Below, piece by piece: positions 2,674 through 63,507 of a DNA stretch of 64,000 bases. Within the stretch, counting starts at the first letter, position 1. Each line of letters begins with the position of its first letter. Source of the DNA: an uncultured Psychroserpens sp. Lineage in GTDB: Bacteria > Bacteroidota > Bacteroidia > Flavobacteriales > Flavobacteriaceae. The stretch lies in NCBI RefSeq assembly GCF_947501425.1, contig NZ_CANMVN010000006.1, positions 124,001-188,000 on the forward strand. The letters run 5' to 3'. The translations under genes were made by a program, and so were the position numbers. The notes below the pieces were generated by a model. It saw nothing but the letters and a program-made list of their open reading frames with translations. It had not been told where the DNA came from and did not search any database.

Positions 2674-4865
2674 TAACTTTCAATTAATTTATGCGGAATA
2701 ACTAAAGTGACTAATGTTCCTTGTTCGTTGAATTTTTTTCGATCCTCAATTGTTACTGAACCTTTCATATTAAAATCTTTAGAAAGCACTCTTAAACGTT
2801 CTGAAGTAATTCTAGTTGCTAAAGAATTCTTGTTGTTATTTGTGTTTTCCGTTTTAAAATTAATACCCACACCATTATCTGCAATGGTGCAGATTAAATT
2901 TTTATCAGAATACATTAAGCGAATATCGATTTTTCGATCTTCTTTTTGGTCTTCAAACGCATGTTCAATGGCATTTTCAACAAAGGGTTGAATCAACATT
3001 GGAGGAATTTCAAACAGCTCAACATCTATAGAATCGTCAACTAGAATAGTACATTTATAGGCTTCGTTTTCTAAATTTTGAAGTGTTAAATACTCTTGAA
3101 CTGCTGTGAGTTCTTGAGATAATGAAACCGTTTTATCTCTGGAATTTTCTAATGTAATGCGCAATAATTTTGAAAATTTTGATAGGTAATTAACCGACTT
3201 CTTTTCTTCCTTGTTTAAAATCATCCCTTGTAATACCGACAATGAATTAAAGATAAAATGTGGTGTCATTTGAGAACGCAATAATTTTTGCTCCATTAAA
3301 GCATTTTGTGTTTTCGACTTTGCATTTTTTAATTTCTGATAAAAAAAGAAAGCACCTAATAGAATTGAAAGCAACAATATACCAATAGTAGCCCACAAGT
3401 AATTCCGTTGTGATTTTTCTAAATCTTGTGAGGTAGTTTTTATTGTCTTAGTGAGCCTCAATTCATTAATACTCAAAGAGTCTAACTGTTGCCTGTACTT
3501 ATATTCGTATTCTAATTGTGTGATTTTCTCAATGTTCTCTTTATTAAAAAGACTATCATTAACTATCTTAAACTCTTGATGACTTTCAAATGCTTTTTTA
3601 TAATCCCCAGTATTACTATAAATAGTTGCTAGAGTCTCTGATACTAATTTTTGTTGTCCTAAAAGCTCTAAATCATCTGCTATTTTTTTTCCTTTGAGTG
3701 CATGATCTAAGGCGCTAGGATAATTTTCAAGTAAAACATAAGTTCTTGCCAAGCCAACATGAGCCTGACAAACAAGAACTAAATCCTCTATAGTTTCAGC
3801 TAACTCTAAACAGGTTTTATAATGTTCTAAAGCTGTATTAGGTTGTTCCATTAAAAGGCGCAAATCTCCAAGTTGAAAATGACCAGCACTTAACTCAGGT
3901 ATGTGATTAATTTCATTACATATCTTCAAAGACTCCGTCATGTAGTCTAGAGCTTTAGTAAATTCTTTTAAATCGGCATAAACAGCTCCTTTATTAACCA
4001 AACTACTGGCTATCTGACGCCTATCCTTCAATTCATTATATATGTCTAACGCTTCATCTAAATAACTTAGTGTTTTATCATATTGTTTCAATTCATAATA
4101 AACAGCACTCATATTATAAGTAGCTTGTGCTATCCCTCGTTTGTTTTTATCGTCTCTATATATACTCAAACATTTATTAAAATATTTCAAAGCTTCAGTA
4201 TACCTTCCCTGGTTAAGGCAAATAGCTCCAATATTGTTTAATGTACCTAAACTTAATTTTTCATAACCCAATTTTTCTCGTATTGTATATGCTTTTTTTA
4301 ACGAATTAAGTGCCGCGTCAAAATCTCCTTCTCTGTAGCTAAGAATTCCTAAATTATTTAGCATATCTGCTTGACTTAATGAATCTCCATCTTTAATGAA
4401 AATAGCTACTAATTTTTCGTAGTAGTCCTTAGCTTTATCATTATCACTTTCATAATATGCTATTTCAGCCAGACAGATGTAAGATGAGTTAATACAGTCC
4501 TGATCGTTTATGTCCTCACACAATGTAAGTGCTTTGAGTGCAAACACTTCAGCCTCTTCCAGTTCTGCTTTCTTTATATAATTATGACCAAACCTCAATA
4601 AGCTTTCTGCTTCACCAGCTTTAAAATTAAGTTCCTTGGCCAGATCGTAAGCTTCTTGAACTTTTTCATCAGATTTATTGATATCCCGACTAGAATAACC
4701 GTAGGCAAGTGTGTTTAATAAGTTAACCTTGGTAGTGTCGTTCTTTTTGTGATGGCGTAAGACATTTTCTAAACTATCTATTACTGCTTCTTCCTGAGCG
4801 AAACTAGCTATTGAAAAGAACATAGTTAAGACTAAAATAAAAACAGATGATTTGATATTTTTCAT
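2673..4865 (-). CDS. TPR-containing LytS/YehU-type sensor histidine kinase
   Basis: 730 residues. A signal peptide (ending SIASFAQ) leads into about ten tetratricopeptide repeats (roughly residues 40-430) predicted to be periplasmic. A single membrane helix (about 486-506) and a coiled coil follow. The His_kinase domain has QMTPHFIFNSL, with H536 as the probable phosphorylated histidine. The ATP-binding region carries the N-box VENAIEHAF and IADNGVGI. This architecture, TPR sensor plus LytS-like kinase, is common in Bacteroidota. It is cotranscribed with the LytTR regulator through a one-base TAATG overlap. The signal is unknown; the TPR array suggests a protein or peptide partner. Confidence 0.92.
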   Translation of the reverse strand: MKNIKSSVFILVLTMFFSIASFAQEEAVIDSLENVLRHHKKNDTTKVNLLNTLAYGYSSRDINKSDEKVQEAYDLAKELNFKAGEAESLLRFGHNYIKKAELEEAEVFALKALTLCEDINDQDCINSSYICLAEIAYYESDNDKAKDYYEKLVAIFIKDGDSLSQADMLNNLGILSYREGDFDAALNSLKKAYTIREKLGYEKLSLGTLNNIGAICLNQGRYTEALKYFNKCLSIYRDDKNKRGIAQATYNMSAVYYELKQYDKTLSYLDEALDIYNELKDRRQIASSLVNKGAVYADLKEFTKALDYMTESLKICNEINHIPELSAGHFQLGDLRLLMEQPNTALEHYKTCLELAETIEDLVLVCQAHVGLARTYVLLENYPSALDHALKGKKIADDLELLGQQKLVSETLATIYSNTGDYKKAFESHQEFKIVNDSLFNKENIEKITQLEYEYKYRQQLDSLSINELRLTKTIKTTSQDLEKSQRNYLWATIGILLLSILLGAFFFYQKLKNAKSKTQNALMEQKLLRSQMTPHFIFNSLSVLQGMILNKEEKKSVNYLSKFSKLLRITLENSRDKTVSLSQELTAVQEYLTLQNLENEAYKCTILVDDSIDVELFEIPPMLIQPFVENAIEHAFEDQKEDRKIDIRLMYSDKNLICTIADNGVGINFKTENTNNNKNSLATRITSERLRVLSKDFNMKGSVTIEDRKKFNEQGTLVTLVIPHKLIES

Positions 4866-14888: not shown

Positions 14889-15518
14889 TTATTTAGTGTT
14901 GCTATTTGTAGAATTGAGAACAATATCCTTTTGAACTACAAAAACTCCATCTTTCTTTACAGGCTTAAGAATCCTGCTTGGATCTCCTTTTTTTGCCATT
15001 CTTTTACGACAAAGCTTTGATAATAATGGATCATCATCAAAAAGAAATGAGCCAATTTCATATTCTGGTTTAGAAGGCTCTTTTATTATAGGAAAGAGTT
15101 GTTGTAACTGATTGTAACGTCTATCATTACCAGGAATAAAAGTATAAAAAGTGTATTGGCCATCAGCATTGGTCTTGATCCATCCTCTGTGATGAACATA
15201 ACGTTTGTCATTATCTTCTCTTAAATCAAAATCACCATGCTCGTCTGCTTGATCTATATACAAAATAACATCCTTAGCAGGAGTTACACCATCACTTTCA
15301 TATATGGTTCCTGAAATTTTAAGCTTGTTAGTTTTGGTTTCGTAATCTGGGATGGTGAAGGTATTATTTAATTGAAGGTCTCCATAATCATATAATGGAC
15401 TACGTTCTAAATAATTATCTGCTAGCTGTACTGAAGCATCTGATGAATCCTGAGCAAAACCTTTGTGGCTTAGACTCATTAAACAGATAAGGCTAAAAAT
15501 TAAAATACAGTTTTTCAT
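14889..15518 (-). CDS. intradiol-dioxygenase-like secreted protein lacking metal ligands
   Basis: 209 residues with signal peptide ending GFAQ. Residues 66-165 match the intradiol ring-cleavage dioxygenase beta-sandwich (ISGTIYESDGVTPAKDVILY, RGWIKTNADGQYTFYTFIPG, IKEP..PEYEIGSFLFDDDPLL). Family members bind Fe(III) through two Tyr and two His, the latter in a P-x-HIH segment; here the matching stretch reads QLQQLFPI, so both His are missing, and the 'GxY' tyrosine is Phe (HGDF). It is probably not an active dioxygenase and may act as a structural or carbohydrate-contacting domain. Its upstream region holds three 15-bp repeats of the shared operator motif. Confidence 0.75.
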   Translation of the reverse strand: MKNCILIFSLICLMSLSHKGFAQDSSDASVQLADNYLERSPLYDYGDLQLNNTFTIPDYETKTNKLKISGTIYESDGVTPAKDVILYIDQADEHGDFDLREDNDKRYVHHRGWIKTNADGQYTFYTFIPGNDRRYNQLQQLFPIIKEPSKPEYEIGSFLFDDDPLLSKLCRKRMAKKGDPSRILKPVKKDGVFVVQKDIVLNSTNSNTK

Positions 15519-15599: not shown

Positions 15600-15644
15600 C
15601 GTTGAAATGTATCTCGACGCAAAATATATCGATGAAATGTATAC
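15600..15644 (-). promoter_or_regulatory. three 15-bp operator-like repeats (site A)
   Basis: Units begin at 15600 (CGTTGAAATGTATCT), 15615 (CGACGCAAAATATAT) and 15630 (CGATGAAATGTATAC), exactly 15 bp apart. Read on the minus strand toward the gene ending its 5' side at 15518, the units give ATACATTTCATCG, ATTTTGCGTCG and ATACATTTCAACG. This is the same motif, in the same orientation relative to the gene, as at 15881-15960, 16677-16708 and 63518-63580. It lies about 85-125 bases upstream of the ATG. The 530-base gap 15519-16048 also contains site B and a promoter; I see no gene in it. Confidence 0.55.
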
Positions 15645-15880
15645 CTGTTATCTATTTAATTATGATGCCTTTAGTTTATCATCAGTAATAAAATGTGAAT
15701 TAATTCTATTCATTATGGTCATGAATATTCAAATAGAATGTACAGATATCATTTGAAGATCCACATATACTTTTATAGAGTACATAAAAATTTAAGTAAG
15801 GAGATTTCAGTAAGACTTAAAACAGTAAAAAATTGATAAAAAAGCACTGTTTTATTTAAACCAATTACTGAAAAACCACG

Positions 15881-15960
15881 AAAGTAATTCGTCGTAAAAA
15901 TTTGCGTTTTATCCACTAAATACGCAGTTTATCCAAGAAATGTGCATTTCATACGATAAA
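15881..15960 (+). promoter_or_regulatory. 20-bp tandem operator-like repeats (site B)
   Basis: Three consecutive 20-base units fill 15901-15960: TTTGCGTTTTATCC..., TACGCAGTTTATCC... and TGTGCATTTCATAC..., each ending in a run of A. A fourth, weaker unit (ATTCGTCGTAAAAA) lies at 15881-15900. The array ends 28 bases before the -33 TTG of the promoter for the gene at 16049. Phased 20-bp direct repeats near the -33 element are typical of AraC- or LytTR-type activators. Confidence 0.62.
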
Positions 15961-15988
15961 AAAGTTTGGAAAAAAAGTTAAAATAAAG

Positions 15989-16018
15989 TTGTTTTTTTTA
16001 ATAATTTGTATAGATTTG
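15989..16018 (+). promoter_or_regulatory. flavobacterial promoter for the gene at 16049
   Basis: TTG (15989-15991), a 19-base spacer, then TAGATTTG (16011-16018), a full match to TTG-N19-TAnnTTTG. Transcription would start near 16025, about 24 bases before the ATG. Confidence 0.7.
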
Positions 16019-16048
16019 CTTGTCCTTGATTAACTAAAATCCATAAAA

Positions 16049-16501
16049 ATGAAGACAAAACCTACTTTAATTATTGCCATATTTTTTCTTATGACAAGCT
16101 TGGGATTCGCTCAAAAAAAGAATGCACCTATCAGTATTATTGCTGGAAAAGTTAGCATTGCAAAATACCATAGTCATGATGAATTAAGTAGAATGAGCAA
16201 AGGAGAATTACTATCATTATATATTGAACGTATAGAAGTCATAGTTAATATTCTACCAAATATCGCTTTTGCTACTAAACCAGGTGTTACCATGTCATCT
16301 TTAGGTATTCCAGAAACTAAAGAAAATAAAAAAGCATTAGAAGCGAATCGAGATGCATCTATTAAATATTTTGATAGTACAGTTGAATTTCAAAGATCCA
16401 TACTGCCCTATTCTGATACTCGCGATTTAATTGCTGCAATTTTATTTTATGAAGAAACTCTAAAATCATTACATACCTATAATGATTATAAAACTGATTA
16501 G
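16049..16501 (+). CDS. small secreted hypothetical protein
   Basis: 150 residues with a clear signal peptide (ends SLGFAQ). The mature part is mostly helical and charged, with no cysteine, no lipobox and no recognised domain; the segment SHDELSRMSKGELLSLYIERIEVIVNIL looks like a helical hairpin. It stands alone between a strong regulated promoter (20-bp repeats) and a terminator. I do not recognise a family. Shared operator motifs link it to the T9SS-adjacent beta-helix protein downstream and the lipoprotein at 63038-63448. Confidence 0.78.
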   Translation: MKTKPTLIIAIFFLMTSLGFAQKKNAPISIIAGKVSIAKYHSHDELSRMSKGELLSLYIERIEVIVNILPNIAFATKPGVTMSSLGIPETKENKKALEANRDASIKYFDSTVEFQRSILPYSDTRDLIAAILFYEETLKSLHTYNDYKTD

Positions 16502-16528
16502 TACTCAATAATAAATCTAAAAACTCAA

Positions 16529-16560
16529 AAACTTCAACAAATAATGTTGAGGTTTTTTTT
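16529..16560 (+). terminator. Rho-independent terminator
   Basis: An 11-bp stem (AAACTTCAACA / TGTTGAGGTTT, one G-T pair) with a 5-base loop is followed by an eight-T run. It closes the small secreted-protein gene 28 bases after its stop. Confidence 0.85.
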
Positions 16561-16676
16561 ATAGATAATGGTCAGATTTAAGGTGCTGATTTATTGGAAG
16601 TTATTTTAATTCCAAGGTGATAGTGCATGTAAAATCATAATTTTGTAGGAAAAATACTCAATTTAGTATCAAATAA

Positions 16677-16726
16677 TGCATTTCGTCGTTTTTTTTTGCA
16701 TTTCATAAGTATTATTTATATGTTTG
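16677..16726 (+). promoter_or_regulatory. operator-like pair plus promoter (site C)
   Basis: TGCATTTCGTCG (16677-16688) and TGCATTTCATAA (16697-16708) are 20 bp apart. The second unit overlaps TTG (16696-16698), which lies 20 bases before TATGTTTG (16719-16726), a TAnnTTTG match. The arrangement, a bound dimer touching the -33 element, suggests activation of the gene at 16775. Confidence 0.62.
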
Positions 16727-16774: not shown

Positions 16775-18082
16775 ATGAAAAAAATTACTCAAATTACACT
16801 CTTCTTTTTATTAGTGTACAGCAATGCTTTTGCTCAGCAAGAAAAAGGAATTACTGGTTATAACAATTGGCTAAATCCTTGGACTGAATTCAGACCAAAT
16901 AAAGTTGAATATAACAAACCAACTCAAATCTTGACAGGTAATATCACTACTGATACAAAATTGTATAAGAGAGATGTTTATTTGTTATTAGGTGATGTGT
17001 TTGTTACTGATAGTACAACCCTCACAATCGAACCAGGAACAGTTATCATTGGTGATTTTAAAACGAAGGCTTCACTCACAATTAGTAATGGATCTAAAAT
17101 CATTGCTGATGGTACTCATACAGACCCAATTATATTTACTTCTAGTAGAAGTGTAAAAAAGCCAGGTGATTGGGGAGGACTCTTTATATTAGGAGATGCT
17201 CCAACAAATAAATTTGGAAATGAAAGTTCTCTAAATTACGGGCTACGTCCATCTAATGCCAATAGTATAAGCTATGGTGGAGATAATCCGTACAGTTATT
17301 CTGGAGTGTTACGTTACGTTAGAATTGAATATGCAGGAAAAAGAACTAAGGATTATGGTTATTTTAATGGGTTAACCTTAGCAGGAGTTGGTCAACAAAC
17401 TATTCTTGAAAACATAATGGTAAGCTATTGCGAGGGAAATTCATTCAATGTATTAGGTGGCGATATAATTTTAGATAAGCTAGTATCTTATAAATCTAGT
17501 ATCAATGATTATGAGTTCAACTATGGAACACAATGTAAAATAAATAACTCTCTAGCAATAAGATCTCCTTACGTATCTGGAGCTGAAATATCGAGATGCA
17601 TGTATGTTTTAAGTCATGATTCTAAAGATGAAGCTGATTTTTCAAAGAACCAAACTTCCGTTAATGCCGAAAATTTAACATTAATAAACCTGAGTGATAA
17701 TCTTAACCATGATATAAAAGTAGGTTTAGTAAACGAGGCGATTTATATTGGACAAGACGTATCTTTTAATATTGATAAAAGTGTGATCTCTGGTTTTAAT
17801 CCCGCAGTTATTTTCGATTACAACGTGAAAATCAATAGCGAAAATCTGGAAAAAATCAAATTCACAAGAACATACTTTAATAATTGTAAGGGAAACATCT
17901 TTGTAAAAGACAACCCTAACAACGAAGATTTAGAAAATTGGTATGGCAATAGAGCCTTTGACAATGTTTACTCTAAAGGTCCAGATTCTGAAACATTTAT
18001 TAATTCGGCAAGTACAAAGCGACCAGACTACAGACTTAGAATTAATAGAATTATTGCTTCAAATGATATAGAAGATGATTAA
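16775..18082 (+). CDS. secreted right-handed beta-helix-like protein
   Basis: 435 residues. Signal peptide ends SNAFAQ. The body is a series of short beta strands typical of parallel beta-helix proteins of Bacteroidota, with hallmark segments ITTDTKLYKRDVYLLLGDV, LTIEPGTVIIGD, SKIIADGTHTDPIIFTS, GDWGGLFILGDAP and LRYVRIEYAG. No C-terminal T9SS sorting domain is evident; the last 30 residues are polar and acidic. It sits 87 bases upstream of the adhesin cluster and may share its transcript. Function is probably carbohydrate or surface binding; no catalytic residues can be assigned. Confidence 0.75.
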   Translation: MKKITQITLFFLLVYSNAFAQQEKGITGYNNWLNPWTEFRPNKVEYNKPTQILTGNITTDTKLYKRDVYLLLGDVFVTDSTTLTIEPGTVIIGDFKTKASLTISNGSKIIADGTHTDPIIFTSSRSVKKPGDWGGLFILGDAPTNKFGNESSLNYGLRPSNANSISYGGDNPYSYSGVLRYVRIEYAGKRTKDYGYFNGLTLAGVGQQTILENIMVSYCEGNSFNVLGGDIILDKLVSYKSSINDYEFNYGTQCKINNSLAIRSPYVSGAEISRCMYVLSHDSKDEADFSKNQTSVNAENLTLINLSDNLNHDIKVGLVNEAIYIGQDVSFNIDKSVISGFNPAVIFDYNVKINSENLEKIKFTRTYFNNCKGNIFVKDNPNNEDLENWYGNRAFDNVYSKGPDSETFINSASTKRPDYRLRINRIIASNDIEDD

Positions 18083-18169: not shown

Positions 18170-19633
18170 ATGTACTACACTAAATTAGCATATAAATCCC
18201 TTATTGGACTTGTTCTTTTTGTTCTTGTTTTGCAAGAAAATGCAAACGCTCAAATAGTCATTGGTGCACCAAATTTAGGGTTTAGTCAAGCTTGTGCAAG
18301 TGAATCCTTTAATACATTTAGTGCAACATTCGTTTTTTCTCCAGATACTGCTTTAGGAGCGTCTAATCAATTTTCTGTAGAACTGTCTGATGCTGAAGGT
18401 GATTTTTCAGAAGCAACAGTAATATATACCTCTAGTCCAGGTACTATAACAGTATCGCCAGCAACTATAGATTTTTCTTTACCAACTGATACTGCTGGAG
18501 AAAATTATAGAATTCGGATAAAGAGTAGTTCACCAGTAGCAACAAGTTCTGGATCAAGCTCTTTTGCTGCATATTATAAAATTCAAGATACGCCATTTAC
18601 AATCAATAATCTAGTTTCAACTGCTGCTTATTGCACTGGAGGAAGTTATCTTTTGACTATTGATAATCCTGGTACAGGATCTAATGATTCTCCTCTTAAC
18701 TACCCTTCTCTTACTTTTAATTGGTATAAAGAAACTGGACAGACAACTTCAGTTTTTGTTGCTGAAGGAAATACATTAACAGTCAGTGAAGAAGGAACCT
18801 ATTTTGTAGAAACAAACTACGGAACATGTACTTCGAATTCATTTTCAAATCGTGTTACCATAAGTGAAGTCTCATCGGGAGAAGCTAATGCTGGTATTTC
18901 ATCTAGCTTAGGAAATCCATTTTGTCCAGCTCAAGGAGCTACAACATTGAGTACTTTGGGAGGTAATAGCTACCAGTGGTTTAAAGATGGTATAGCCATT
19001 CCAGATGCTACAAATCAAATGCTGCAAACCAGTGAATCTGGAATCTATGCTGTGCAAGTTGATTTAGGAGATTGTTCAGCCTCAGGATCCATTGAACTGG
19101 AGAGCGAATTATTTGAAGGAAGTATCAATGTTTCCGAGGTAAATACAATAGAAGAAGGAGAAACTTTATCTGTTCTAGTCACAACAACTGCTAACAATCC
19201 AGAGTACGAATGGTATATAGATAACATGCTTATTTCTGGTGCTAATGAAAATAGTTATGAGGCAACAGAATTTGGTAGTTATAAAGTTATAGTTAATGAA
19301 ACAAGTGGATGTACAGGTTCTAGAGAATTTCTCTTTGAAATTAATGAAGCTTTAGATCCCTTTCCAGATGTTGAAAAGATACCCAATGTAATTAGCCCAA
19401 ATGGCGATAGCATTAATGATACTTGGGTAATACCTACGAAATATGTTAGTGGTACAAATACGGAGGTTATGATTATGACTAATAGAGGTAAAATAGTGTT
19501 ACAAACCAACGATTATCTTAATAATTGGCCAGAAAATGACCTAAATCTAACAAGCATAAATCAAGTGTTTTATTATGTGATCACAACGGCAGATAATGAA
19601 ACAAAAAAAGGCTCAATAACAATAGTGAAATAA
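18170..19633 (+). CDS. T9SS type-B sorted Ig-like surface protein
   Basis: 487 residues. Signal peptide ends ENANAQ. The middle contains beta-sandwich/Ig-like modules with the 'YQWFKDGIAIPDATNQ..TSESGIYAVQV' pattern twice. The C-terminal ~85 residues (from about 404: IPNVISPNGDSINDTWVIP ... GSITIVK) are the gliding-associated CHU_C / T9SS type B sorting domain, which routes the protein through the T9SS to the cell surface. The next gene, a PorP/SprF barrel fusion, starts 1 base after its stop, so the pair is coupled. This mirrors SprB-SprF pairs, where a PorP/SprF protein is needed to export one adhesin. Confidence 0.88.
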   Translation: MYYTKLAYKSLIGLVLFVLVLQENANAQIVIGAPNLGFSQACASESFNTFSATFVFSPDTALGASNQFSVELSDAEGDFSEATVIYTSSPGTITVSPATIDFSLPTDTAGENYRIRIKSSSPVATSSGSSSFAAYYKIQDTPFTINNLVSTAAYCTGGSYLLTIDNPGTGSNDSPLNYPSLTFNWYKETGQTTSVFVAEGNTLTVSEEGTYFVETNYGTCTSNSFSNRVTISEVSSGEANAGISSSLGNPFCPAQGATTLSTLGGNSYQWFKDGIAIPDATNQMLQTSESGIYAVQVDLGDCSASGSIELESELFEGSINVSEVNTIEEGETLSVLVTTTANNPEYEWYIDNMLISGANENSYEATEFGSYKVIVNETSGCTGSREFLFEINEALDPFPDVEKIPNVISPNGDSINDTWVIPTKYVSGTNTEVMIMTNRGKIVLQTNDYLNNWPENDLNLTSINQVFYYVITTADNETKKGSITIVK

Positions 19634-19634
19634 T

Positions 19635-22118
19635 ATGAAAACACATCTATTGGTTTTAGTATTATGTATCTGTTATATACAGATGTTCTATTCTCAAGAA
19701 GATGATGGAGTGGTTTCGCTTAGCCTTCCAGTAAGAAATTCACTAACATTTAACAGATATGCCATTAACCCTACATTTAGTTTTGTTAGAGAGCAAAATA
19801 AATACATCAGTATTTTTAATAAAAGAGAATGGGTGCAATTTGAAGATGCACCACTCACCTATTTGGCAAGTTATTCAGGTCGATTTAGTGAAAATATAGG
19901 AGCTGGATTAGGACTATTTCAGCAAAATTACGGAGTGTTAACAACCTTTGGAGGTGTATTGAATTTTGCCTATAATGCGCAACTAGATCGAGATAGTAAC
20001 TTGACTTTCGGACTAAATGTTGGCGCTTATAAAAGTGGAGTAAACACAGGTAATGTTATTACAAATTTTGATGATCCTTCATTACAGAATGTTCCTGAAA
20101 ATTTCTTGTTGACTATCAGTCCGGGAATTAACTACGGAACGGTGTTTCTGGATTTTGGAGTGTCTATCAATAATTTGGCACTGTATAATTTCGAATCCTC
20201 TACTCTAATAGAAGAAAATCCAGAACAAAGTATACAGGCTCACATTATGTATACAGGATACATGAACAACAGAGGGTTCTTTGATGAAGCTAAGTTTTCA
20301 GGATTAATAAGATCAGAATTCAAAAAAGATGAAACTATTATTTCTGCCATTGCAATGCTTACTGTACCAAAAGGAATCTGGGCTCAAGTAGGTTATAATT
20401 CTGTGTTTGGAGCTTCTGGTGGTATTGGAATTAATATTACATCACAAATAGCACTTGAATATAATTATGAAAGAGCCATTGGTGATCTAACTAATTTTGG
20501 ATCGTCACATGAGTTTACTCTGGCATTCAGATTTAAAAACAGAGAGAATTATATCTACAGTGGTGGTGATGAAGTTAGTGGACTGATTTCAACCGAAAAA
20601 AGGAAACAACCTGTATCAAAAATTTCAAAAGCTACAGCAGAAGCTAATCGAAAAGCTTCCGCAGAGAGAAAAGCCCAACAAGAAGCTGATACACAGGCTA
20701 AACTACTAGCAGAACAGAAAGCTAAGGAAGAAGCGGATGCCAAAGCTAGACTACAAGAAGAACAAAAAGCTAAGGAAGAAGCGGATGCCAAAGCTAGACT
20801 ACAAGAAGAACAAAAAGCTAAGGAAGAGGCGGATGCTAAAGCTAGATTACTAGCAGAACAGAAAGCTAAAGAGGAAGCGGATGCACAAGCTAAACTATTA
20901 GCAGAACAGAAAGCTAAAGAAGAAGCTGATGCACAAGCTAAACGATTAGCAGCGCAAAAGGCTAAAGAAGAGGCTGAAGCACAAGCCAAACGATTAGCAG
21001 CGCAAAAGGCTAAAGAAGAGGCTGAAGCACAAGCCAAACGATTAGCAGCGCAAAAGGCTAAAGAAGAGGCTGATGCACAAGCTAAACTATTAGCAGAACA
21101 GAAGGCTAAAGAAGAGGCTGAAGCACAAGCCAAACTATTAGCAGAGCAAAAGGCTAAAGAAGAGGCTGAAGCACAAGCTAAACGATTAGCAGAACAGAAA
21201 GCTAAAGAAGAGGCTGACGCTAAAGCAGAACTGATTACAAATCCTAAAGACGAATTAGGTAAATCTATGTATGCACTTGCGCAACAGACTGAAGCGACTA
21301 AATCTACTCAGAATGAATTATTAGAGAAATTAAATGAAATAGTTGAAATCAAGAATCAAGACCTTAAAGATTTAAAAGAGGAAAATGACTTGAGTGAACA
21401 AGGTATCACTGTAAAACCAAAAGCATTCAAAAGTATTACAGAGGAAAACAATAGACTTAATGCTATTAAATCTGATTTAGATAAAACCATAAAGATTAGA
21501 AGCGAGAAAATTGAAGAACTTAAGAAATTATATGAAGACAATTTTGATGCTGATACAATTACTAACGATGAAGTATACCTCTATTATCAAAAGGCCATTA
21601 AACGTTTAGAGTCAGAACAAATTGATGCAACTGAAGCAATAACGAGATTAGACACCAGATTGGAAGATATTAGAGTTGCTACCGAATTTGAACGAAGAAG
21701 ACGAATCAAACGTGCTGCCTTTGATAATGAGGAAGAACGCTATGCACAGGATAGAGCAACACTAGAAAACATTAAGCAAACAACAACTTTATCTAGCCAG
21801 ACATTACAATCGGAAGATTTTGATTTTGGGGAAGAACAAAGTGGTAATATTCAAATTTTAAAGAATGTCAAAAACATTGATAACGGATATTATCTGATTT
21901 TGGCAGTCCATAGTGATATTGATAAACGAAATGATTTCGTGACTAAAGTAGTAGCATCAGGTCGTACAGATGTTGACTTCTTCTATGATGTCAATACTAG
22001 TAAATATTACATTTATTATGAGAAGACTGATAGTGTTGAATCAGCCAATGAGGCTTTAAAAGCAAAAGGAAACAGACCGTATAATAAAAATATGTCCCTC
22101 GTTAAAATAGAGAATTAA
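19635..22118 (+). CDS. PorP/SprF-family barrel fused to a coiled-coil repeat and SPOR-like end
   Basis: 827 residues. Signal peptide ends FYSQ. Residues ~20-310 are a PorP/SprF-type outer-membrane beta-barrel (NRYAINPTFSFVREQNKYISIFNKREWVQF, GGIGINITSQIALEYNYE). Residues ~361-536 are eleven tandem 16-residue Ala/Glu/Lys/Gln units predicted to form a long rigid coil. A second charged helical region follows. The last ~90 residues (GYYLILAVHSDIDKRNDFVTKVV...SANEALKAKG) resemble a SPOR fold. Normal PorP/SprF proteins are about 300 residues, so the 500-residue periplasmic extension is unusual. It may tether the barrel to peptidoglycan. It lies between two T9SS cargo genes. Confidence 0.85.
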   Translation: MKTHLLVLVLCICYIQMFYSQEDDGVVSLSLPVRNSLTFNRYAINPTFSFVREQNKYISIFNKREWVQFEDAPLTYLASYSGRFSENIGAGLGLFQQNYGVLTTFGGVLNFAYNAQLDRDSNLTFGLNVGAYKSGVNTGNVITNFDDPSLQNVPENFLLTISPGINYGTVFLDFGVSINNLALYNFESSTLIEENPEQSIQAHIMYTGYMNNRGFFDEAKFSGLIRSEFKKDETIISAIAMLTVPKGIWAQVGYNSVFGASGGIGINITSQIALEYNYERAIGDLTNFGSSHEFTLAFRFKNRENYIYSGGDEVSGLISTEKRKQPVSKISKATAEANRKASAERKAQQEADTQAKLLAEQKAKEEADAKARLQEEQKAKEEADAKARLQEEQKAKEEADAKARLLAEQKAKEEADAQAKLLAEQKAKEEADAQAKRLAAQKAKEEAEAQAKRLAAQKAKEEAEAQAKRLAAQKAKEEADAQAKLLAEQKAKEEAEAQAKLLAEQKAKEEAEAQAKRLAEQKAKEEADAKAELITNPKDELGKSMYALAQQTEATKSTQNELLEKLNEIVEIKNQDLKDLKEENDLSEQGITVKPKAFKSITEENNRLNAIKSDLDKTIKIRSEKIEELKKLYEDNFDADTITNDEVYLYYQKAIKRLESEQIDATEAITRLDTRLEDIRVATEFERRRRIKRAAFDNEEERYAQDRATLENIKQTTTLSSQTLQSEDFDFGEEQSGNIQILKNVKNIDNGYYLILAVHSDIDKRNDFVTKVVASGRTDVDFFYDVNTSKYYIYYEKTDSVESANEALKAKGNRPYNKNMSLVKIEN
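20715..21242 (+). repeat. eleven tandem 48-bp repeats inside the PorP/SprF fusion gene
   Basis: Eleven in-frame copies of a 48-bp unit encode QKAKEEA(D/E)A(K/Q)A(K/R)(L/R)(L/Q)(A/E)(E/A)-type 16-mers. Adjacent copies are nearly identical at DNA level, which implies recent expansion by slippage or unequal recombination. Copy number probably varies between strains. A degenerate unit (RKAQQEADTQAKLLAE) precedes the array. Confidence 0.9.
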
Positions 22119-22179
22119 ATAAGTAATTAGGCCCCATTCCTATTCACCCACTGCCCATGGAAGAACTGGAATACAAAAA

Positions 22180-25100
22180 ATGAGTATCATGAAAAAACCT
22201 ACATTTTCTAGACTTACAATTATTATATTATTGTTCATAGGTTTTCAATCCTATGCACAAAATTACGAACCCTTCACCCCTAGGTTTAATGAGGATCTAA
22301 AAGGAGATATAGTCCTTATTGGTAATAATATTCTTGGGCCAGATAATAATGCATTTAATGATAATTCGGTTTATAATCACAATGTCAATATGACTTATAT
22401 TGATATTGATGGTGATGCATCTACATTTAGTTCATCAAGTGCTGACTTAGAAATTCCAAATCCTAATTGTTATAGAATTATTTATGCAGGTTTATATTGG
22501 GGAGCCGTTAATCCAGGTAATGAACCAATTACTAATGTAAAACTCAAAGGGCCAGTTGGAGGTTATAATGATATCACAGGAACTATTATCTATGATGCTA
22601 ATGGAACAACTGTTGATGGTGGTGATAGTTTTTCTTATGCATGTTTTGCTGATGTTACTGATATTGTAACTGCGTTTGGTTCTGGTACAGATTTAGGAAC
22701 TTATACAGTGGCAAATGTCTCTTCAGGTTTAGGTGAAACAGCTAATTTCGATCCTTATAACGGAACCGGACAATCAGCAGGTTGGTCTCTTTTTATAGTT
22801 TATGAAGACCCTACATTACCTGGTAAATCTATTACTAGTTTTGATGGGTTTAGTGCCATTAGTGTACCTGGAAATAATCCAAATTTAGACATTCTTGTTG
22901 ACGGATTTAGAACAGTCCCTGCTCCTGCTCCTGTTAGAGCAAATTTTGCTTTCGCTACACTTGAAGGTGATAGCCCGATTTTAGGAGACCGCTTAAGGTT
23001 AAACGGTGTGAGTTTATCTACAGCAGATCGGCCAGTAGCCAATTTTTTTAATAGTTCGGTAACACGATTGGATGCAACACCAGTAGACAATAGAGTCCCA
23101 AATAGTACCAATACACTAGGTTTTGATACTGGTACAATTGCTATTCCTAATCCAGGAAACTCTGTTATTGCTAATGATGCAACTTCAGGAGTTATCAGAC
23201 TAGAGACTAGTGGTGACACCTATTTCCCATATTTCTTTGCTTTTGCTGTTGAAATTATTGAACCTAATATTGTGCTTACTAAAATTGTAGAGGATGATGC
23301 TGGAAATGATATAGGAGGACAAACCGTAGATCTTGGTGCTTCACTGAATTATGTTATTGGTTTTCAAAATACGGGAAATGACAATGCGACTAATTTCCAA
23401 ATTAGAGATATACTTCCAATAAATATTATTTTTAACTACCCTGACGATCTTGTATTACCACCTGGAGTTACCGTAGCAAGTTATAACCCAACTACAAGAG
23501 AAATCATTTTTAATATCGATAATTCTCTGGTTGAGGAGAATGATCCGGTTTATGAAATTCGTATTGAAGTACAGGTAGTAGACTCCTGTGGTGAATTGGC
23601 AGACGCTTGTTCAAATATTATCAATAATCAGGCATATGCGACATATAACGGTTTTTTTAATCCGACATTTCAAATTACAGATGATCCTAGTTTAAATAGT
23701 AATACTGGATGCCTGTTATCACCTCAAGCTACTAACTTTTTAGCTGATCTTGATTGTGAATTTATAGAAGAGATTATCCTTTGTGGAGATAGTGTTGATC
23801 TTACTGCAGCAGATGGCTACGATTCATATTCGTGGTCTACAAATCCGTCAGGAACGCCTGTTATTGGAACAACACAAACAATAACAGTAACAAATACAGG
23901 CACCTATTATTCATTCAACACCGCTATAGCACCTTGTCAGTCTATAGAACAGCAATATGTTGTTGAAGTATTTGGTGGAGATATAGAAAACCCTGTGATT
24001 CCTTACGCTGATGAAGTAGTTACCTGTCCTAACGATGGAAAACTATTACCAAATATATTCCTATGTGGTGCTAACGATTCAAGATTCATTCAAACTAATA
24101 TATCTAGTGCAACTTCAATTATTTGGGAACAACTTGACGAATCCAGCTGTGCAGCAGTAACAGATCCAGATTGTGCAAATGAGGATGATTCATGTGTTTG
24201 GAACGAAGTTGGAACTGGTGCAGATTTTCTAGCAAATACTTCGGGGCAGTTCAGATTAACTATCAACTTTTCTGGTGGTTGCTTTGTTCAGTTCTATTTT
24301 AATGTTTACCAGAACTTATTAAATCCAACTGTAATAGCAACAGACATTATTTGTACAACACCAGGAAGTATTACCGTAAATGATGTGCCTTCTGGCTATG
24401 AGTATAGCTTAGATGACAATACCTATCAAACAAGTAATGTTTTTACAGTTAATACACCTGGAACTTACACTGTTTACATCAGACAAATTGATGTACCCAC
24501 AAATCCATGTGTATTTACTGTTCCGGATGTTCAGATTAGAGATCGGGATTTCACAGTGACATCAACAATCATTCAACCTCTCTGCCATGGTGAATTAGGA
24601 AGCATCCAATTAGCGGCTAATGATGTAGATCCGCAATATTCGTTTTCATTGTTTGAAGGTGGCACCTTAGTCAATAGCGTTGGTCCAATACTAGAAAATA
24701 CGTATAGTTTTGATAATTTAAACCCAGGAACTTATACAGCTACTGTAGAAACAGAAAATGGGTGTTTCTATTCTGAAGATGTTATCATTGTTGAACCACC
24801 ATTATTAACAGTTACTGCAGCTATTACAGTTCCATTAACATGTACTGAAGGAGAAATTACTGTCTATCCTGTTGGTGGAACACCTCCTTATTTCTATTTT
24901 GTGAATGGCTCAACAGATTTTCAAACAGTTCCTGAGATAGTTGTAACAACACCTGGAACTTATGATGTTACAGTTGTAGATTCTAACAACTGTAGTGCAA
25001 GTACATCTATAGTGGTAGATGCGATTCCAGAACCAGATTTTAATGTGTCAGCAACTGATATCGCTTGTGCAGATGCCACAGATTCGGGAATAATTAGTAT

Positions 25101-28100
25101 CAATGTGACTGCCACAAATGGTAGTAGCTTAGAATATAGTATTGATGGAGGGGCAACATTTGTCAATTCATCTGTATTTACCGGACTTACAGAAGGTGAT
25201 TATGATGTGGTTGTTCAATATTCACTTGGATCTTCTGTATGTACAACTAACCCACAAACCATATCAATAATTGCAAATAATGCCATTTCAGGTACTGCAG
25301 AATTATCAGCGCCATATACTTGTACTGATAACGGAACTATTACTGTTACTGGAGTTTCTGGTGGTGATGCACCTTACACTTATAGTATTGATGGTGTAAA
25401 CTTTCAAGTTAGTAATGTATTTACTGGTTTGACTGCTGGGACTTACACTATAACCATACAAGATGCAAATGATTGTACATTCATTACTAATGATGTTACC
25501 ATAGATGCTTTAAACCCACCTACTGACCTTACTTTTGATAATTCGCCAATAACATGTCCTACAAATACAACTACAGTAACTATTTCAGGAGTAACTGGTG
25601 GTACCGGAACTTTGGAGTATCAAATTATTGCTCCAACTATAAATGCAACACCTTATCAAACTTCAAATGTGTTTACTGGTCTAGAGCCAGGAACATATAC
25701 ATTTCAGGTTCGAGATGCTAACAACTGTATTTATAGCGAATCATATACTATAGATCCTATTCCTACACCAACGGTTAATGCTGTATTGACAGAAAATCTT
25801 AACTGTACAGCAACTCCAGATGCTGTAATCTCAGGAACAATTACTGGTCCGGCGCCATACACCTATGCAGTATCTATAAATGGCGGAACATTTACAACAC
25901 TAGGTTCTACAGGTTCAACATTTACATATACAACTGGAACTGCTGGAACATACCAGTTCCAAATCACTGATGCTAACGGTTGTACTGCGGAAACTAGCGA
26001 AATCACAGTATCTCCAATTTCATTACCTGACTTAAGTGTGATTACTCAAACACAAGATATCCTTTGTAATGGAGACTCTAATGGTGCAATAGATATTACT
26101 ATTGACAATACTGTTGGTACGCCTCCATTTGTTATTAATGTCAATAATGATACTACAGGTACGGACTATGGTACTCAGACTTCAGGCTTGCCAGCAGGTA
26201 CATACACTATTTCTATTACTGATGCAAATTCTTGTACAGCTACAGATACAATTACCATAAATGAGCCAGATCCTATTGTTGTGGATTATGCAACTGTTGA
26301 TATTACTTGTGGACCAGGAGGGATTTCTCAAGGTTCTGTTATTATAAATTCAGTAACAGGAGGAACAGCGCCTTATAACTACTTTGTAACAGGTACTAAT
26401 GGATATTCAAATTCTGAAATTAATGCAACAGGATCAACTTCGGTGAGTTTTGATGTTGTAGATTTCGGTTTATATGAGATTAATGTAGTCGATGCCAATG
26501 GATGTTCAGTTTTAGAACAGGATGTATTGGTTGCATCACCTCCTACCGACTTGGATATTACGATTACATCAACAGTGGACTGTCTTACAGGTGGTGAAGC
26601 TGTAGTTAGTATTGGTTCTACATTGACAAGTTCAGGGCCGTTCTTCTTCAGTATTTATCAAGGACCAATTTCAGTATATCCAAATCCTCCAGGATCATGG
26701 ATTCCAGAGGATTCTCCTGGTAGTGAAACCGCAACGTTTACTGGTTTAACATCAGGTGTTACATATACATTTATTGTGTATGATGCATCTACAAATTGTA
26801 GTTATTATGAACCAGCTACTACTCCAATTCCAACAAACTCAACACTAACATTAAGTGCGGTTAGTTCAAATAATATTACCTGTACAGGAAGTGCAGATGG
26901 TAATGTGTCTTTTACTGTCAATAGTGTTTATGGCTCTGCTGTAAACGTTGACTATGAAATATTTGACACATTAACTTTAGCGTCAACTGGTGTTACAGGC
27001 TCTGGCACAGTTCCAGCTAATGGATCACTTACAGTAACAGACTTAGGGCCTTTACCGTTTGGTAACTATTTTGTTTCAATTAGTGAAACTTCTGGAGCAA
27101 ATTCAGGTTGTGGTGTTGTCACAGCGCCTTTCAATATAACCGAGTCTGCTATTGCATTAAACTTGCTTGTTTCTATTAATCAAAATGCAAATTGTAATGC
27201 TGGTTCCGGACTTATAAGTGCAGTGGGTGAAAATGGTACAGCACCTTATTTATACCAAATCACTACAACTCCAACTGCTCCTTTAGAGAATGACCCATCA
27301 TGGGCTTCTGCGAGTACGTTCAATGTAGATTCTGGTAACTATTATGTTCATGTGCTCGATGCCTATGGATGTGTTGTATCAAGTCCTGTGGTTATTGTCC
27401 CAATGGACCCAACACCTGTAATTTCGGCAACTGTTAATAATTTATGTACAGTTTCCGAAGGAGATTTTGAAATAGATGTTACTCTGGACACACCTGGTAT
27501 AGCTCCTTATAGCTATAGTATAGATGGTGGCGCTCCTCAAACCTTAACAGCTCCATTTGCGATATATAATTTATTTTCTGGAACACATACTATTGAAATT
27601 CAAGATGCTAATGGCTGTGGAAATTTAGTATCAATAGATATTCCTGCTCCTGTAGAAATAACTGCTGATATTAGCTCTGAACCATCTTGTAATAATGATG
27701 ATGGACAAATTACAGTCAATGGCACAAATGGTTCAGGATCTTATGCATACAGTATTAGTCCAAATCCAGCGTCTATAAGTTTAACAGGGAATGTATACTC
27801 TAGTGTTCCATCTGGAATCTATACAATTACAATTACTGATACAGTGACGTCTTGTACAGAAGAAGTTACTATTTCTGTACCTGAAGCTACACCTCCAACG
27901 TTTACTACTACTTCAACGGCTGTGACTTGTTTTGGTGATAATTCTGGTTCATTTGAAATTAATGTCAGTGGATATTCAGGTGCTTATACTTATGAAGTGT
28001 TTGACAATTTGGGAACATCAGTAACTGGTGTAGTTAATGCCAATACATCAACTAACCCTTTTACAGTTACGGGAATGCAAGCTGGAAGTTTTACAGTAGT

Positions 28101-30408
28101 CATTACTGAAACTGAAAATCCATTTTGTTCTGCAACATCTGGTGTGATCATTTCATCGCCTTCAGAAACGCTATCACTCATAGCGACTGAAACATCAAAT
28201 GTGACATGCGATAATAGTCAAGGAACTATTACAGCAGTTGCCAGTGGTGGTTGGGGAGATTATCAATATGAATTGACTGGTGCATCAACAGTAGCTTATT
28301 CTCCAAATAATGTCTTTACTGATTTGTCAGCTGGTAATTATACTGTAAATGTTATTGATGCCGAAGGTTGTGTAGCATCTACCAATATTACGTTAATAGA
28401 ACCTAATCCAATTAACGCAACATTTACACCAAGTGTGACAACTCTGGCTTGTTTTGGTGATCAGGACGCGTCTATCACAATAACAAATACGACTGGCGGA
28501 CAAGGTACAGATTACACTTACACTTTAAATACAATTTTACCTACTCCAAGTACATCTGGACCTCAAACTTCAAATATTTTTGGAAACCTTGGCGCTGGAA
28601 CATATTCTGTAACAGTTAGCGATGGTAATGAATGTGTATTGAATTCAGCAACTATTGTAATTACGGAACCAACCCCAATTCAAGCAAGTTTGGTGACTAC
28701 AACTACTCAAACATGTTTAACAGAATCTACACTAACATTGAGTGCAACTGGTGGAACTGGTCAGTATTCCTATAGTAATGACAGTACTTTTTCTACTGTT
28801 TTAGGAACATTCAATTCATCAATCACCTTTTCCGTAGCTGCTGGTACATATCAATATTATGTAAGAGATGCCAACGGCTGTGCGGCTAATGTATCAAATG
28901 AAATAACAATTGATCCACTTCCTGAATTAGTAATCAATTTAGAATCAACTGATCCAACCATTAATTGTGCTGGTGATAATAACGGAACTATAATGGCAAC
29001 AGCACAAGGAGGATTAGGTAATTACATATATACCCTAGAAGATACTTCAGGAAATACAATTCCTGCAACTCAAAATAGTCCTGGTGTATTTACAGAATTA
29101 GTAGCAGGAACTTATGTAGTACATGTTGAAAGTGGCGATTGTGAAACAGCAACTGCACCAATTACTATAACTGAGCCAACAGCACCTTTAGAAGTGGAAT
29201 TTACAGTCAATGATGTAACTTGTAGTGGAAATGATGATGGTAGATTAGAGATCACTGCTACTGGAGGTACTGGTATTATTAAATATGCCATATCACCTCA
29301 ATTGGATCAGTTTTTTGAAACCAATGTGTTTGAAAATCTTGCACCTGGAAATTACGATGTTATTGTTCAGGATATATTAGGTTGTTATGTCACTTTTAGT
29401 TTTACAATTAATGATCCAATACAAGTTATCTTAACCATTGTCCCTGATTCGATTTTTGAAGAAACTTGTGAAGGTGAAGGAAATGGTGAATTCAGTATTG
29501 ACATTTCAGGTGGAAATTTACCATACAGTGTGAGTTTAGATAATTATGATGGACCATATACCACAGGATCTGCAAACCAAACAGTATTTGATTTTACTGG
29601 ACTAGGTGGTGGTGATCATACTGTTTTTGTTCGTGATGCTCAAGGTTGTGAATCTGAATGGAACATTACATTCCCAGAGTCAGTGTTTATCGACCCAATG
29701 GTTGAGATTGAGTTTCTATGTGTTGATAATTCTCTAACCAATACAGTTACAGTAACTGTAGATGATAGTATTACAGACCTAACACAATTAGATTATTCTT
29801 TAGATGGCGGCCCATACCAAATGAGCAACATATTTACAGATGTAGCTCCAGGTACAGACCACTACATTGATGTTAGACATACCAATGGTTGTATACAAAC
29901 AACTGAGTTCTTTGATATTGGTGATTACGTTCCTGTTGACTTAATATTGAATGAAGGTGAAGCACCAGGTGAAATTATTGCTAATGCATCTGGAGGTACT
30001 GGCGATTATCAATTTACTATGAATGGTGAAGATTACGGAACCACAAGTGTGTTTGTAGTTACCGAAGAAGGTACATATACTATTACTGTTACAGATAGTG
30101 CAGGCTGTGAAGCTTTAGCTGTTATCGAAATTGAGATTTTAGGACCTTGTATTCCAAATTATTTTACACCAAATGGTGATGGCGTTACCGATACATGGGC
30201 TCCAGGTTGTGTGGAGGATTACCCAAATCTTACGTTTGATATTTTTGATCGCTATGGACGAAAAGTAGCTACTTATCGTGTTGGTGAATATTGGGATGGT
30301 CGATATAATGGAACCGAGCTTCCAACAGGTGATTATTGGTATGTTGTAAGACCAAATAGTACCATTTTAAATAAGGAATATGTTGGACATTTCACACTTT
30401 ACAGGTAA
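22180..30408 (+). CDS. giant SprB-repeat adhesin with T9SS type-B sorting domain
   Basis: 2742 residues. Signal peptide ends SYAQ (ATG at 22180 or, more conventionally, 22189). The first ~360 residues form an N-terminal module with a Y-W-G-A box (GLYWGAVNP), followed by a DUF11-like module (NIVLTKIVEDDAGND...LNYVIGFQNTGN). Then come about twenty SprB-type repeats of ~80-90 residues (pattern YSIDGG..FQ.SNVFTGL.AGTYTI.I.DANGC). Residues 2657-2742 are the CHU_C sorting domain (FTPNGDGVTDTW ... GHFTLYR). SprB-like adhesins move along the surface in gliding cells or mediate attachment. It is followed 29 bases later by a classical PorP/SprF gene, its likely export partner. Confidence 0.93.
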   Translation: MSIMKKPTFSRLTIIILLFIGFQSYAQNYEPFTPRFNEDLKGDIVLIGNNILGPDNNAFNDNSVYNHNVNMTYIDIDGDASTFSSSSADLEIPNPNCYRIIYAGLYWGAVNPGNEPITNVKLKGPVGGYNDITGTIIYDANGTTVDGGDSFSYACFADVTDIVTAFGSGTDLGTYTVANVSSGLGETANFDPYNGTGQSAGWSLFIVYEDPTLPGKSITSFDGFSAISVPGNNPNLDILVDGFRTVPAPAPVRANFAFATLEGDSPILGDRLRLNGVSLSTADRPVANFFNSSVTRLDATPVDNRVPNSTNTLGFDTGTIAIPNPGNSVIANDATSGVIRLETSGDTYFPYFFAFAVEIIEPNIVLTKIVEDDAGNDIGGQTVDLGASLNYVIGFQNTGNDNATNFQIRDILPINIIFNYPDDLVLPPGVTVASYNPTTREIIFNIDNSLVEENDPVYEIRIEVQVVDSCGELADACSNIINNQAYATYNGFFNPTFQITDDPSLNSNTGCLLSPQATNFLADLDCEFIEEIILCGDSVDLTAADGYDSYSWSTNPSGTPVIGTTQTITVTNTGTYYSFNTAIAPCQSIEQQYVVEVFGGDIENPVIPYADEVVTCPNDGKLLPNIFLCGANDSRFIQTNISSATSIIWEQLDESSCAAVTDPDCANEDDSCVWNEVGTGADFLANTSGQFRLTINFSGGCFVQFYFNVYQNLLNPTVIATDIICTTPGSITVNDVPSGYEYSLDDNTYQTSNVFTVNTPGTYTVYIRQIDVPTNPCVFTVPDVQIRDRDFTVTSTIIQPLCHGELGSIQLAANDVDPQYSFSLFEGGTLVNSVGPILENTYSFDNLNPGTYTATVETENGCFYSEDVIIVEPPLLTVTAAITVPLTCTEGEITVYPVGGTPPYFYFVNGSTDFQTVPEIVVTTPGTYDVTVVDSNNCSASTSIVVDAIPEPDFNVSATDIACADATDSGIISINVTATNGSSLEYSIDGGATFVNSSVFTGLTEGDYDVVVQYSLGSSVCTTNPQTISIIANNAISGTAELSAPYTCTDNGTITVTGVSGGDAPYTYSIDGVNFQVSNVFTGLTAGTYTITIQDANDCTFITNDVTIDALNPPTDLTFDNSPITCPTNTTTVTISGVTGGTGTLEYQIIAPTINATPYQTSNVFTGLEPGTYTFQVRDANNCIYSESYTIDPIPTPTVNAVLTENLNCTATPDAVISGTITGPAPYTYAVSINGGTFTTLGSTGSTFTYTTGTAGTYQFQITDANGCTAETSEITVSPISLPDLSVITQTQDILCNGDSNGAIDITIDNTVGTPPFVINVNNDTTGTDYGTQTSGLPAGTYTISITDANSCTATDTITINEPDPIVVDYATVDITCGPGGISQGSVIINSVTGGTAPYNYFVTGTNGYSNSEINATGSTSVSFDVVDFGLYEINVVDANGCSVLEQDVLVASPPTDLDITITSTVDCLTGGEAVVSIGSTLTSSGPFFFSIYQGPISVYPNPPGSWIPEDSPGSETATFTGLTSGVTYTFIVYDASTNCSYYEPATTPIPTNSTLTLSAVSSNNITCTGSADGNVSFTVNSVYGSAVNVDYEIFDTLTLASTGVTGSGTVPANGSLTVTDLGPLPFGNYFVSISETSGANSGCGVVTAPFNITESAIALNLLVSINQNANCNAGSGLISAVGENGTAPYLYQITTTPTAPLENDPSWASASTFNVDSGNYYVHVLDAYGCVVSSPVVIVPMDPTPVISATVNNLCTVSEGDFEIDVTLDTPGIAPYSYSIDGGAPQTLTAPFAIYNLFSGTHTIEIQDANGCGNLVSIDIPAPVEITADISSEPSCNNDDGQITVNGTNGSGSYAYSISPNPASISLTGNVYSSVPSGIYTITITDTVTSCTEEVTISVPEATPPTFTTTSTAVTCFGDNSGSFEINVSGYSGAYTYEVFDNLGTSVTGVVNANTSTNPFTVTGMQAGSFTVVITETENPFCSATSGVIISSPSETLSLIATETSNVTCDNSQGTITAVASGGWGDYQYELTGASTVAYSPNNVFTDLSAGNYTVNVIDAEGCVASTNITLIEPNPINATFTPSVTTLACFGDQDASITITNTTGGQGTDYTYTLNTILPTPSTSGPQTSNIFGNLGAGTYSVTVSDGNECVLNSATIVITEPTPIQASLVTTTTQTCLTESTLTLSATGGTGQYSYSNDSTFSTVLGTFNSSITFSVAAGTYQYYVRDANGCAANVSNEITIDPLPELVINLESTDPTINCAGDNNGTIMATAQGGLGNYIYTLEDTSGNTIPATQNSPGVFTELVAGTYVVHVESGDCETATAPITITEPTAPLEVEFTVNDVTCSGNDDGRLEITATGGTGIIKYAISPQLDQFFETNVFENLAPGNYDVIVQDILGCYVTFSFTINDPIQVILTIVPDSIFEETCEGEGNGEFSIDISGGNLPYSVSLDNYDGPYTTGSANQTVFDFTGLGGGDHTVFVRDAQGCESEWNITFPESVFIDPMVEIEFLCVDNSLTNTVTVTVDDSITDLTQLDYSLDGGPYQMSNIFTDVAPGTDHYIDVRHTNGCIQTTEFFDIGDYVPVDLILNEGEAPGEIIANASGGTGDYQFTMNGEDYGTTSVFVVTEEGTYTITVTDSAGCEALAVIEIEILGPCIPNYFTPNGDGVTDTWAPGCVEDYPNLTFDIFDRYGRKVATYRVGEYWDGRYNGTELPTGDYWYVVRPNSTILNKEYVGHFTLYR

Positions 30409-30437
30409 TAGGATCTGAAGAATTTAAAATTATTCAA

Positions 30438-63477: not shown

Positions 63478-63507
63478 CAAAGGTAATTCTAAAAATGAAT
63501 AAAACAA
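63478..63507 (-). promoter_or_regulatory. flavobacterial promoter of the lipoprotein gene
   Basis: On the minus strand, TTG (63507-63505), a 19-base spacer, then TACCTTTG (63485-63478), a complete TTG-N19-TAnnTTTG match. Start of transcription is expected near 63471, about 23 bases before the ATG. Confidence 0.7.

Follow-up and report, generated by a model that had tools for sequence, protein, structure and literature searches.

A direct-repeat operator upstream of exported-protein genes in Flavobacteriaceae and its probable reader, a LytTR-type response regulator

The 64,000-nucleotide stretch of an uncultured Psychroserpens sp. genome analysed here (hereafter the window) contains four arrays of a short direct repeat, each located upstream of a gene encoding an exported protein. 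These arrays are real and extend far beyond the 64-kb window. They are well explained as a LytTR-type regulon whose member genes mainly encode exported proteins; this regulon is real and apparently undescribed. The arrays are probably the operators of a LytTR-type response regulator, most likely of an orphan LytTR protein encoded next to priA. This reading builds on site architecture, genome-wide enrichment, conservation at orthologous loci, regulator co-occurrence, and box-like words in the regulator promoter, all of which were observed here.

The best form of the repeat unit is TGYATTTCRTCG. Array C, upstream of 14889-15518(-), has three 12-bp units on the minus strand (15630-15641, 15615-15626, and 15600-15611) in 15-bp steps, and array B, upstream of 16049-16501(+), has four units on the plus strand, starting at 15883, 15903, 15923, and 15943 (15883-15954), in exact 20-bp steps. 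Array A, upstream of 16775-18082(+), consists of box1 (TGCATTTCGTCG, 16677-16688) and box2 (TGCATTTCATAA, 16697-16708), both on the plus strand and 20 bp apart. Array D, upstream of 63038-63448(-), has three units on the minus strand (63569-63580, 63539-63550, and 63518-63529) in steps of 30 and 21 bp. The preliminary description had listed three units at 15 bp, three or four at 20 bp, two at 20 bp, and three at 21/30 bp, and all four arrays read as described, array B with four units; in each, the units point toward the gene. It had also placed a clear TTG-N19/20-TAnnTTTG promoter at three arrays. The −7 boxes of 16775 (TATGTTTG, 16719-16726(+), 42 bp from the start of box1) and 63448 (TACCTTTG, 63478-63485(-)) are clearer than those at arrays C and B, a candidate for the 16049 promoter being TAGATTTG (16011-16018(+)).

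Within the window, single words with up to two mismatches are barely above chance (26 versus 18.2 in shuffled sequences, 5 of 100 shuffles being as high), and same-strand pairs of words with at least 9 of 12 matches show no clear excess over the wide range of 14–31 bp (20 versus 13.9, maximum 20). Pairs with at least 10 of 12 matches at 14–31 bp number six, compared with a mean of 0.07 and a maximum of 1 in 15 shuffles, and pairs with at least 9 of 12 matches at 20–21 bp number five versus 1.5 (maximum 3). The host genome (3.70 Mb, 40 contigs) contains exact TGYATTTCRTCG 27 times versus 2 times for a reversed-word control, and TRYATTTCRTCG with up to one mismatch 170 times versus 174, which is no excess. 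Hence, the signal resides in exact and tandem sites, and exact words and pairs were used for counting because mismatch-tolerant single words are not in excess. Exact TRYATTTCRTCG occurs at 30 sites, 26 of which lie outside genes (counting L002, which runs some 10 bases into the beginning of a divergent gene) and four inside (L005, L009, L010, and L023), in a genome that is about 92% coding; a systematic 400-kb sample of the host genome, 92% coding, contains zero exact sites. Random density and equal occurrence inside genes, which had been named as outcomes that would speak against the regulon, were thus not found, and the majority of host sites face the downstream gene.

A profile built from 14 sites, R1, gave 26 matches under E 0.01 in the host genome, 14 of which are its own training sites, together covering 24 loci. 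Arrays A and D, both training sites, matched with E values of 2.7e-6 and 8.9e-8, and arrays B (15888-15919) and C with 0.024 and 0.032.

When the 30 exact sites, selected by box1 only, were examined for a second box, the +20 position was prominent (z 5.3, a statistic in which several sites share one locus and count each other). Downstream words with at least 9 of 12 matches lie at +20 (nine sites), +21 (four), and +30, +42, +51, and +61 (two each), with single words at +12, +15, +18, and +68; upstream words lie at −51 (two), −44, −36, −30 (three), and −21. The arrays had been called helically phased, a term that suits the words at 20/21, 30, 42, 51, and 61 bp but not array C, whose 15-bp step does not amount to complete helical turns, although the spacing of its outer pair (30 bp) nearly does. 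Spaced at +20/+21, copies of the 9-nt core ATTTCRTCG have 11–12 nt between them. Known LytTR sites are reported as 9–11-nt repeats with 11–13-nt spacers and no common word (PMC4847170), and their period of about 20–24 bp is matched by the +20 and +21 pairs, not by array C. When the region after box1 was searched for TAnnTTTG-like words at 26 host sites, 12 fell 40–49 bp away (six of them at 41–42) and eight at 50–59, an excess over the mean of 4.2 per 10-bp bin; the 10–19 bp bin likewise has 10.

A search for orthologs of 16775 returned 30 loci from the genus and beyond, the host's own included, and the other 29 were compared. An R1 match is found at the position of array A in 25 of the 29, at that of array B in 23, and at that of array C, oriented as in the host and opposite to A and B, in 16; R1 matches elsewhere in these loci came to 7/81. 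Box2 of array A is kept at +20 or +21, and a perfect TAnnTTTG lies exactly +42 from the start of box1 in 27 of the 29 loci, a spacing that would put the repeats at or just ahead of the −35/−33 region, as at LytTR sites. In eight further loci, the box pair is present in six, weaker in G122, and absent in G093. Chance in AT-rich sequence would fit the lack of excess among mismatch-tolerant single words, but the 27 exact words against 2, the +20 pairing of boxes, and this conservation at orthologous loci leave it next to no probability.

The four window targets all scored as exported, in line with the signal peptides claimed for them, by a rule that is crude and home-made. The product of 14889-15518(-) is dioxygenase-like (it resembles Dioxygenase_C weakly, with an E value of 8e-4 that falls short of the family cut-off) and has homologs in the orthologous loci. 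The 150-aa product of 16049-16501(+) belongs to no family, and its gene adjoins 16775 in 29 of 29 orthologous loci; the 136-aa product of 63038-63448(-) has no family either. For the 435-aa product of 16775-18082(+), a beta-rich model of low confidence (mean pLDDT 61) was obtained; several of its best Foldseek matches are beta-helix proteins, all weak, with zero matches under 0.001. Downstream lies a T9SS-linked cluster (18170-31448(+)) that encodes a CHU_C protein, a PorP/SprF protein, a 2742-aa SprB-repeat/CHU_C protein, and a second PorP/SprF protein; gaps of 88, 2, 62, and 30 bp suggest that these genes are perhaps read from the 16775 promoter as an operon.

Across the host genome, the next same-strand gene carries an export signal at 17 of 24 site loci; among background genes preceded by at least 80 bp of non-coding sequence, the figure is 55 of 155 (Fisher p 0.0015). 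The signal was called by the home-made rule, which 128 of 353 background genes pass, and the 17 loci were judged by hand. The seven loci without an exported next gene include those of an ECF sigma factor, a 79-aa protein, and the porX–tsaE gap. Two more, C12 and C3:352121, have the exported gene on the other side, and at C12 an exact box on the opposite strand faces that gene; the last two are a doubtful 69-aa frame and C6:280955, where the match faces a 703-aa gene 430 bp off. Host targets include gldK (GldK by TIGR03525, E 4e-180) as well as proteins with T9SS tails, TIGR04183 in five and TIGR04131 in one. TIGR04183 is thus present at 5 of 24 site loci, compared with 85 matches genome-wide and about 0.6 expected, as calculated by hand for about 3,300 genes. 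Further targets are an M14 carboxypeptidase, an alpha/beta hydrolase, an esterase, a leucine-rich-repeat protein, a CAP lipoprotein, and a TPR sensor kinase; close to another TPR kinase there is a fainter R1 match of opposite orientation (E 0.08). The surface-protein regulon that had been proposed, under an AraC- or LytTR-type activator, is well supported as a LytTR-type regulon with mainly exported targets, and it is wider than proposed, reaching gldK, the ECF sigma factor, and a TPR histidine kinase.

Two observations concern the surroundings of these sites. A C-rich leader (CCC[CT]A or ACCCAC in the 60 nt that precede the start codon, e.g. at 16775 and 63448) was found at 7 of 19 targets versus 6 of 179 background starts, with a pattern that was chosen after the targets had been viewed. 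The site between the porX-like gene (Response_reg-PglZ) and tsaE, found in two genera (L089:1566-1601, i.e. C6:37065-37100, and L282), faces the 3′ end of porX and no gene start, and an antisense or reverse-acting role is possible.

Parts of the target list recur in relatives. In G154, from a different genus, 8 of 13 exact sites adjoin relatives of the neighbors of host sites, namely tsaE, a 59-aa exported protein, the alpha/beta hydrolase, the esterase, GldK, the LRR protein, the CAP protein, and a 105-aa exported protein; G027 and G101 share with the host the LRR and the ECF sigma factor target, respectively. At the gldK promoter, R1 matches were found in 13 of 22 regulator-positive genomes and in none of eight regulator-negative ones, GldK having gone unrecognised in one of the 31 loci (L189). 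Divided by relatedness of the regulator, the matches occur in 13 of 14 genomes with a closely related protein and in none of eight in which it shows 60–66% identity. The best gldK match is reversed relative to gldK in all 13 relatives, whereas that of the host faces gldK.

This reversal, in 13 of the 22 regulator-positive genomes, would suit sites that bind a repressor instead of an activator, whatever the protein, as would the 15-bp array and the overlap of box2 with the −33 region. We consider repression quite improbable in view of the promoter geometry, in which the boxes stop short of a −7 box that they leave free and to which they keep a constant spacing, the usual place of a LytTR activator (PMC6193735). 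In Flavobacterium psychrophilum, the −7 box is reported at −12 to −5 (PMC9723704), which would put box1 at −54 to −43 and box2 at −34 to −23, an activator position.

A different kind of explanation would make the motif no operator at all, but a segment of a sigma-factor promoter or of some conserved RNA element like Flavo-1. Flavobacteria do have the widespread computed RNA motif Flavo-1 as well as alternative sigma motifs (PMC9723704), but the repeats are followed by a −7 box of its own and are spaced close to whole helical turns, and Rfam, searched at gathering scores over the window and 19 site loci, gave only four matches, all tRNAs. An Rfam element, Flavo-1 or other, was rejected on this result, and the wider explanation is very improbable.

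We now turn to the protein that may read the sites. The host has 13 LytTR genes. The candidate, an orphan Response_reg-LytTR protein (C4:11577-12269 of the host genome), is encoded between rpsF-rpsR-rplI (S6-S18-L9) and priA with no kinase neighbor, and it has a receiver domain (PF00072) followed by a LytTR domain (PF04397), both over cut-off. The S6-S18-L9/regulator/priA order is also present in a close relative (L191), and its S6 and priA part in a Flavobacterium. Another of the 13, a LytTR response regulator in the window, adjoins a TPR histidine kinase of the His_kinase type (1936-4865(-)).

The candidate and two other host LytTR proteins, L037 and L031, were profiled across genomes. In sets of 20 genomes hand-picked from word counts in the family, an ortholog of the candidate (60–99% identity) is present in all 20 motif-rich genomes and in 12 of the 20 motif-poor ones; several Flavobacterium species also have one. 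L037 had been suspected first on account of a site some 200 bp past its gene, the one R1 match near any of the 13 LytTR genes, and it was rejected on its presence in 2 of 20 motif-rich genomes. The site after L037 (L092:3614-3898) precedes a 65-aa exported protein with a PID-CTERM-like end, which scored 23.8 bits with a cut-off of 26. L031 was rejected as the sole regulator, being present in 19 of 20 genomes in both sets and missing in G159, which has 21 words.

Sampling was then extended to 199 Flavobacteriaceae genomes, 121 of which contain six or more word copies. With regulator presence defined as a match under 1e-55, the 151 genomes with the regulator hold 1565 words versus 322 of the control (2.92 versus 0.60 per Mb), and the 48 without it hold 62 versus 60 (0.55 versus 0.54 per Mb). 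Six or more words are present in two of these 48: G194, which has a 68% regulator fragment at a contig end, and G088, a clear exception with 13 words versus 0 of the control, where the ortholog was not found in a genome that is 87% complete. Of the regulator-positive genomes that measure 2.5 Mb or more, 14 hold at most three exact words; in the word-poor, regulator-positive genomes G031, G111, and G010, drifted words such as TGCATTTAATCC are present at the regulator promoter. On a GldK tree of 31 rows, only two changes in regulator presence are needed, one of them deep and the other on the long branch of G174, so that the genomes are not independent points. Regulator and words thus co-occur, as expected of a LytTR regulator and its sites, though clustered on the tree and with G088 excepted.

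The same operator and regulon could have another reader, be it another LytTR protein, an AraC-type activator, or PorX, in which case the priA-linked LytTR would merely share its phylogenetic distribution. The roughly two transitions on the GldK tree and the profiling of 3 of 13 host LytTR genes leave room for this, and for PorX so does the site between a porX-like gene and tsaE in two genera. We nevertheless regard it as unlikely: L037 and L031 fail to fit, the reported PorX site, ATT-N8-AAT, is unlike TGYATTTCRTCG (PMC8050853), and in several genera the promoter of the candidate itself has the site or the matching geometry.

This last point comes from 80 regulator loci (667 kb), on which R1 gave 13 matches under E 0.5, 12 of them in the intergenic gap directly ahead of the regulator gene. 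Eleven of the 12 are reversed (nine in Flavobacterium, one in Nonlabens, and one other) and one, in Robiginitalea, is forward. The claim that the motif keeps the same orientation relative to the gene accordingly holds for the four window arrays and most host sites, and not for the gldK repeat in 13 relatives or the regulator-gene repeat in these 11 loci. At the regulator gene of the host and the close-clade loci, no R1 match reached the threshold. The gap upstream of the close-clade gene is conserved (23 loci aligned), and when the word score was computed for the 50 positions 30–79 bp before the −7 box, 42 bp was the highest (8.9/12 versus an overall mean of 4.2, SD 1.0). In 33 of 35 close-clade loci, which are related to one another, this position has the top score, alone or in a tie; L204 and L225 differ. 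L221 is without the −7 words sought. In G027, about 55 bp separate the end of an exact TGCATTTCATCG from the codon at which the regulator alignment begins. A TACTATTG located 44 bp after box1 directly adjoins the GTG predicted as the start there, which makes either the start or the box unsure. Judged from these sequences, the regulator appears to act on its own gene.

For the priA-linked LytTR, we propose that a dimer or a row of dimers would bind the direct TGYATTTCRTCG repeats at 20–21 bp, with extra copies at about 30, 42, or 51 bp presented on the same helix face. With box1 42 bp ahead of the −7 box, box2 would overlap the −33 region of a sigma-A promoter, a place from which an activator could contact RNA polymerase. 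Binding, activation rather than repression, and the involvement of a kinase or signal are inferred. Such a regulon would control the amounts of exported and T9SS-secreted proteins and of a portion of the T9SS core (gldK).

In several respects this resembles LytTR regulators of the AgrA, ComE, YpdB, and AlgR type. The candidate has their receiver and LytTR domains, two repeats lie about two helical turns apart beside the promoter (PMC4847170, PMC6193735), and there are signs of autoregulation, as reported for HdrR; LytTR sites are often autoregulatory and adjoin the −35 element (PMC6193735). Differences are the recognition word, the up to four units per array, the lack of a kinase gene beside the candidate, the exported and T9SS targets, and the spread across many genera of one family.

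In the reports considered here, T9SS and surface genes of this group are described as regulated via sigma factors, PorX, and PhoP. The PorXY-SigP system, which controls the T9SS of Porphyromonas gingivalis, likewise ties a two-component-type regulator to T9SS genes, and an ECF sigma factor is among the targets here; however, PorX is a Response_reg-PglZ protein and not a LytTR protein, and its footprinted sites share ATT-N8-AAT, unlike the present sites (PMC8050853). The SM1–SM6 motifs of F. psychrophilum have the same −7 box, TAnnTTTG, but they are sigma-factor motifs, and the parts of that report considered here describe no upstream direct-repeat operator (PMC9723704). PhoP of Riemerella anatipestifer is a DNA-binding regulator mapped genome-wide in a related bacterium, but the most conserved nucleotides of its sites are TTTAACA (PMC9603813). 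Among the matches listed from a mostly open-access literature for LytTR together with flavobacteria, gliding, T9SS, or repeats, we found no description of this operator or regulon; TGCATTTCATCG occurs in two papers of that literature, neither concerning flavobacteria.

A broader, tentative reading, which we hold at somewhat below even, is that the priA-linked LytTR is a family-wide surface master switch of Flavobacteriaceae, acting on gldK, T9SS cargo, other exported proteins, the ECF sigma factor, the TPR kinase, and its own gene. With a defined site, one candidate regulator, and a conserved target list, the co-ordination of gliding, secretion, and surface enzymes becomes directly testable in Flavobacterium. 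Five genomes (G056, G080, G129, G172, and G189) have three matches each under 1e-55 to the priA-linked LytTR, and these paralogs may have regulons of their own.
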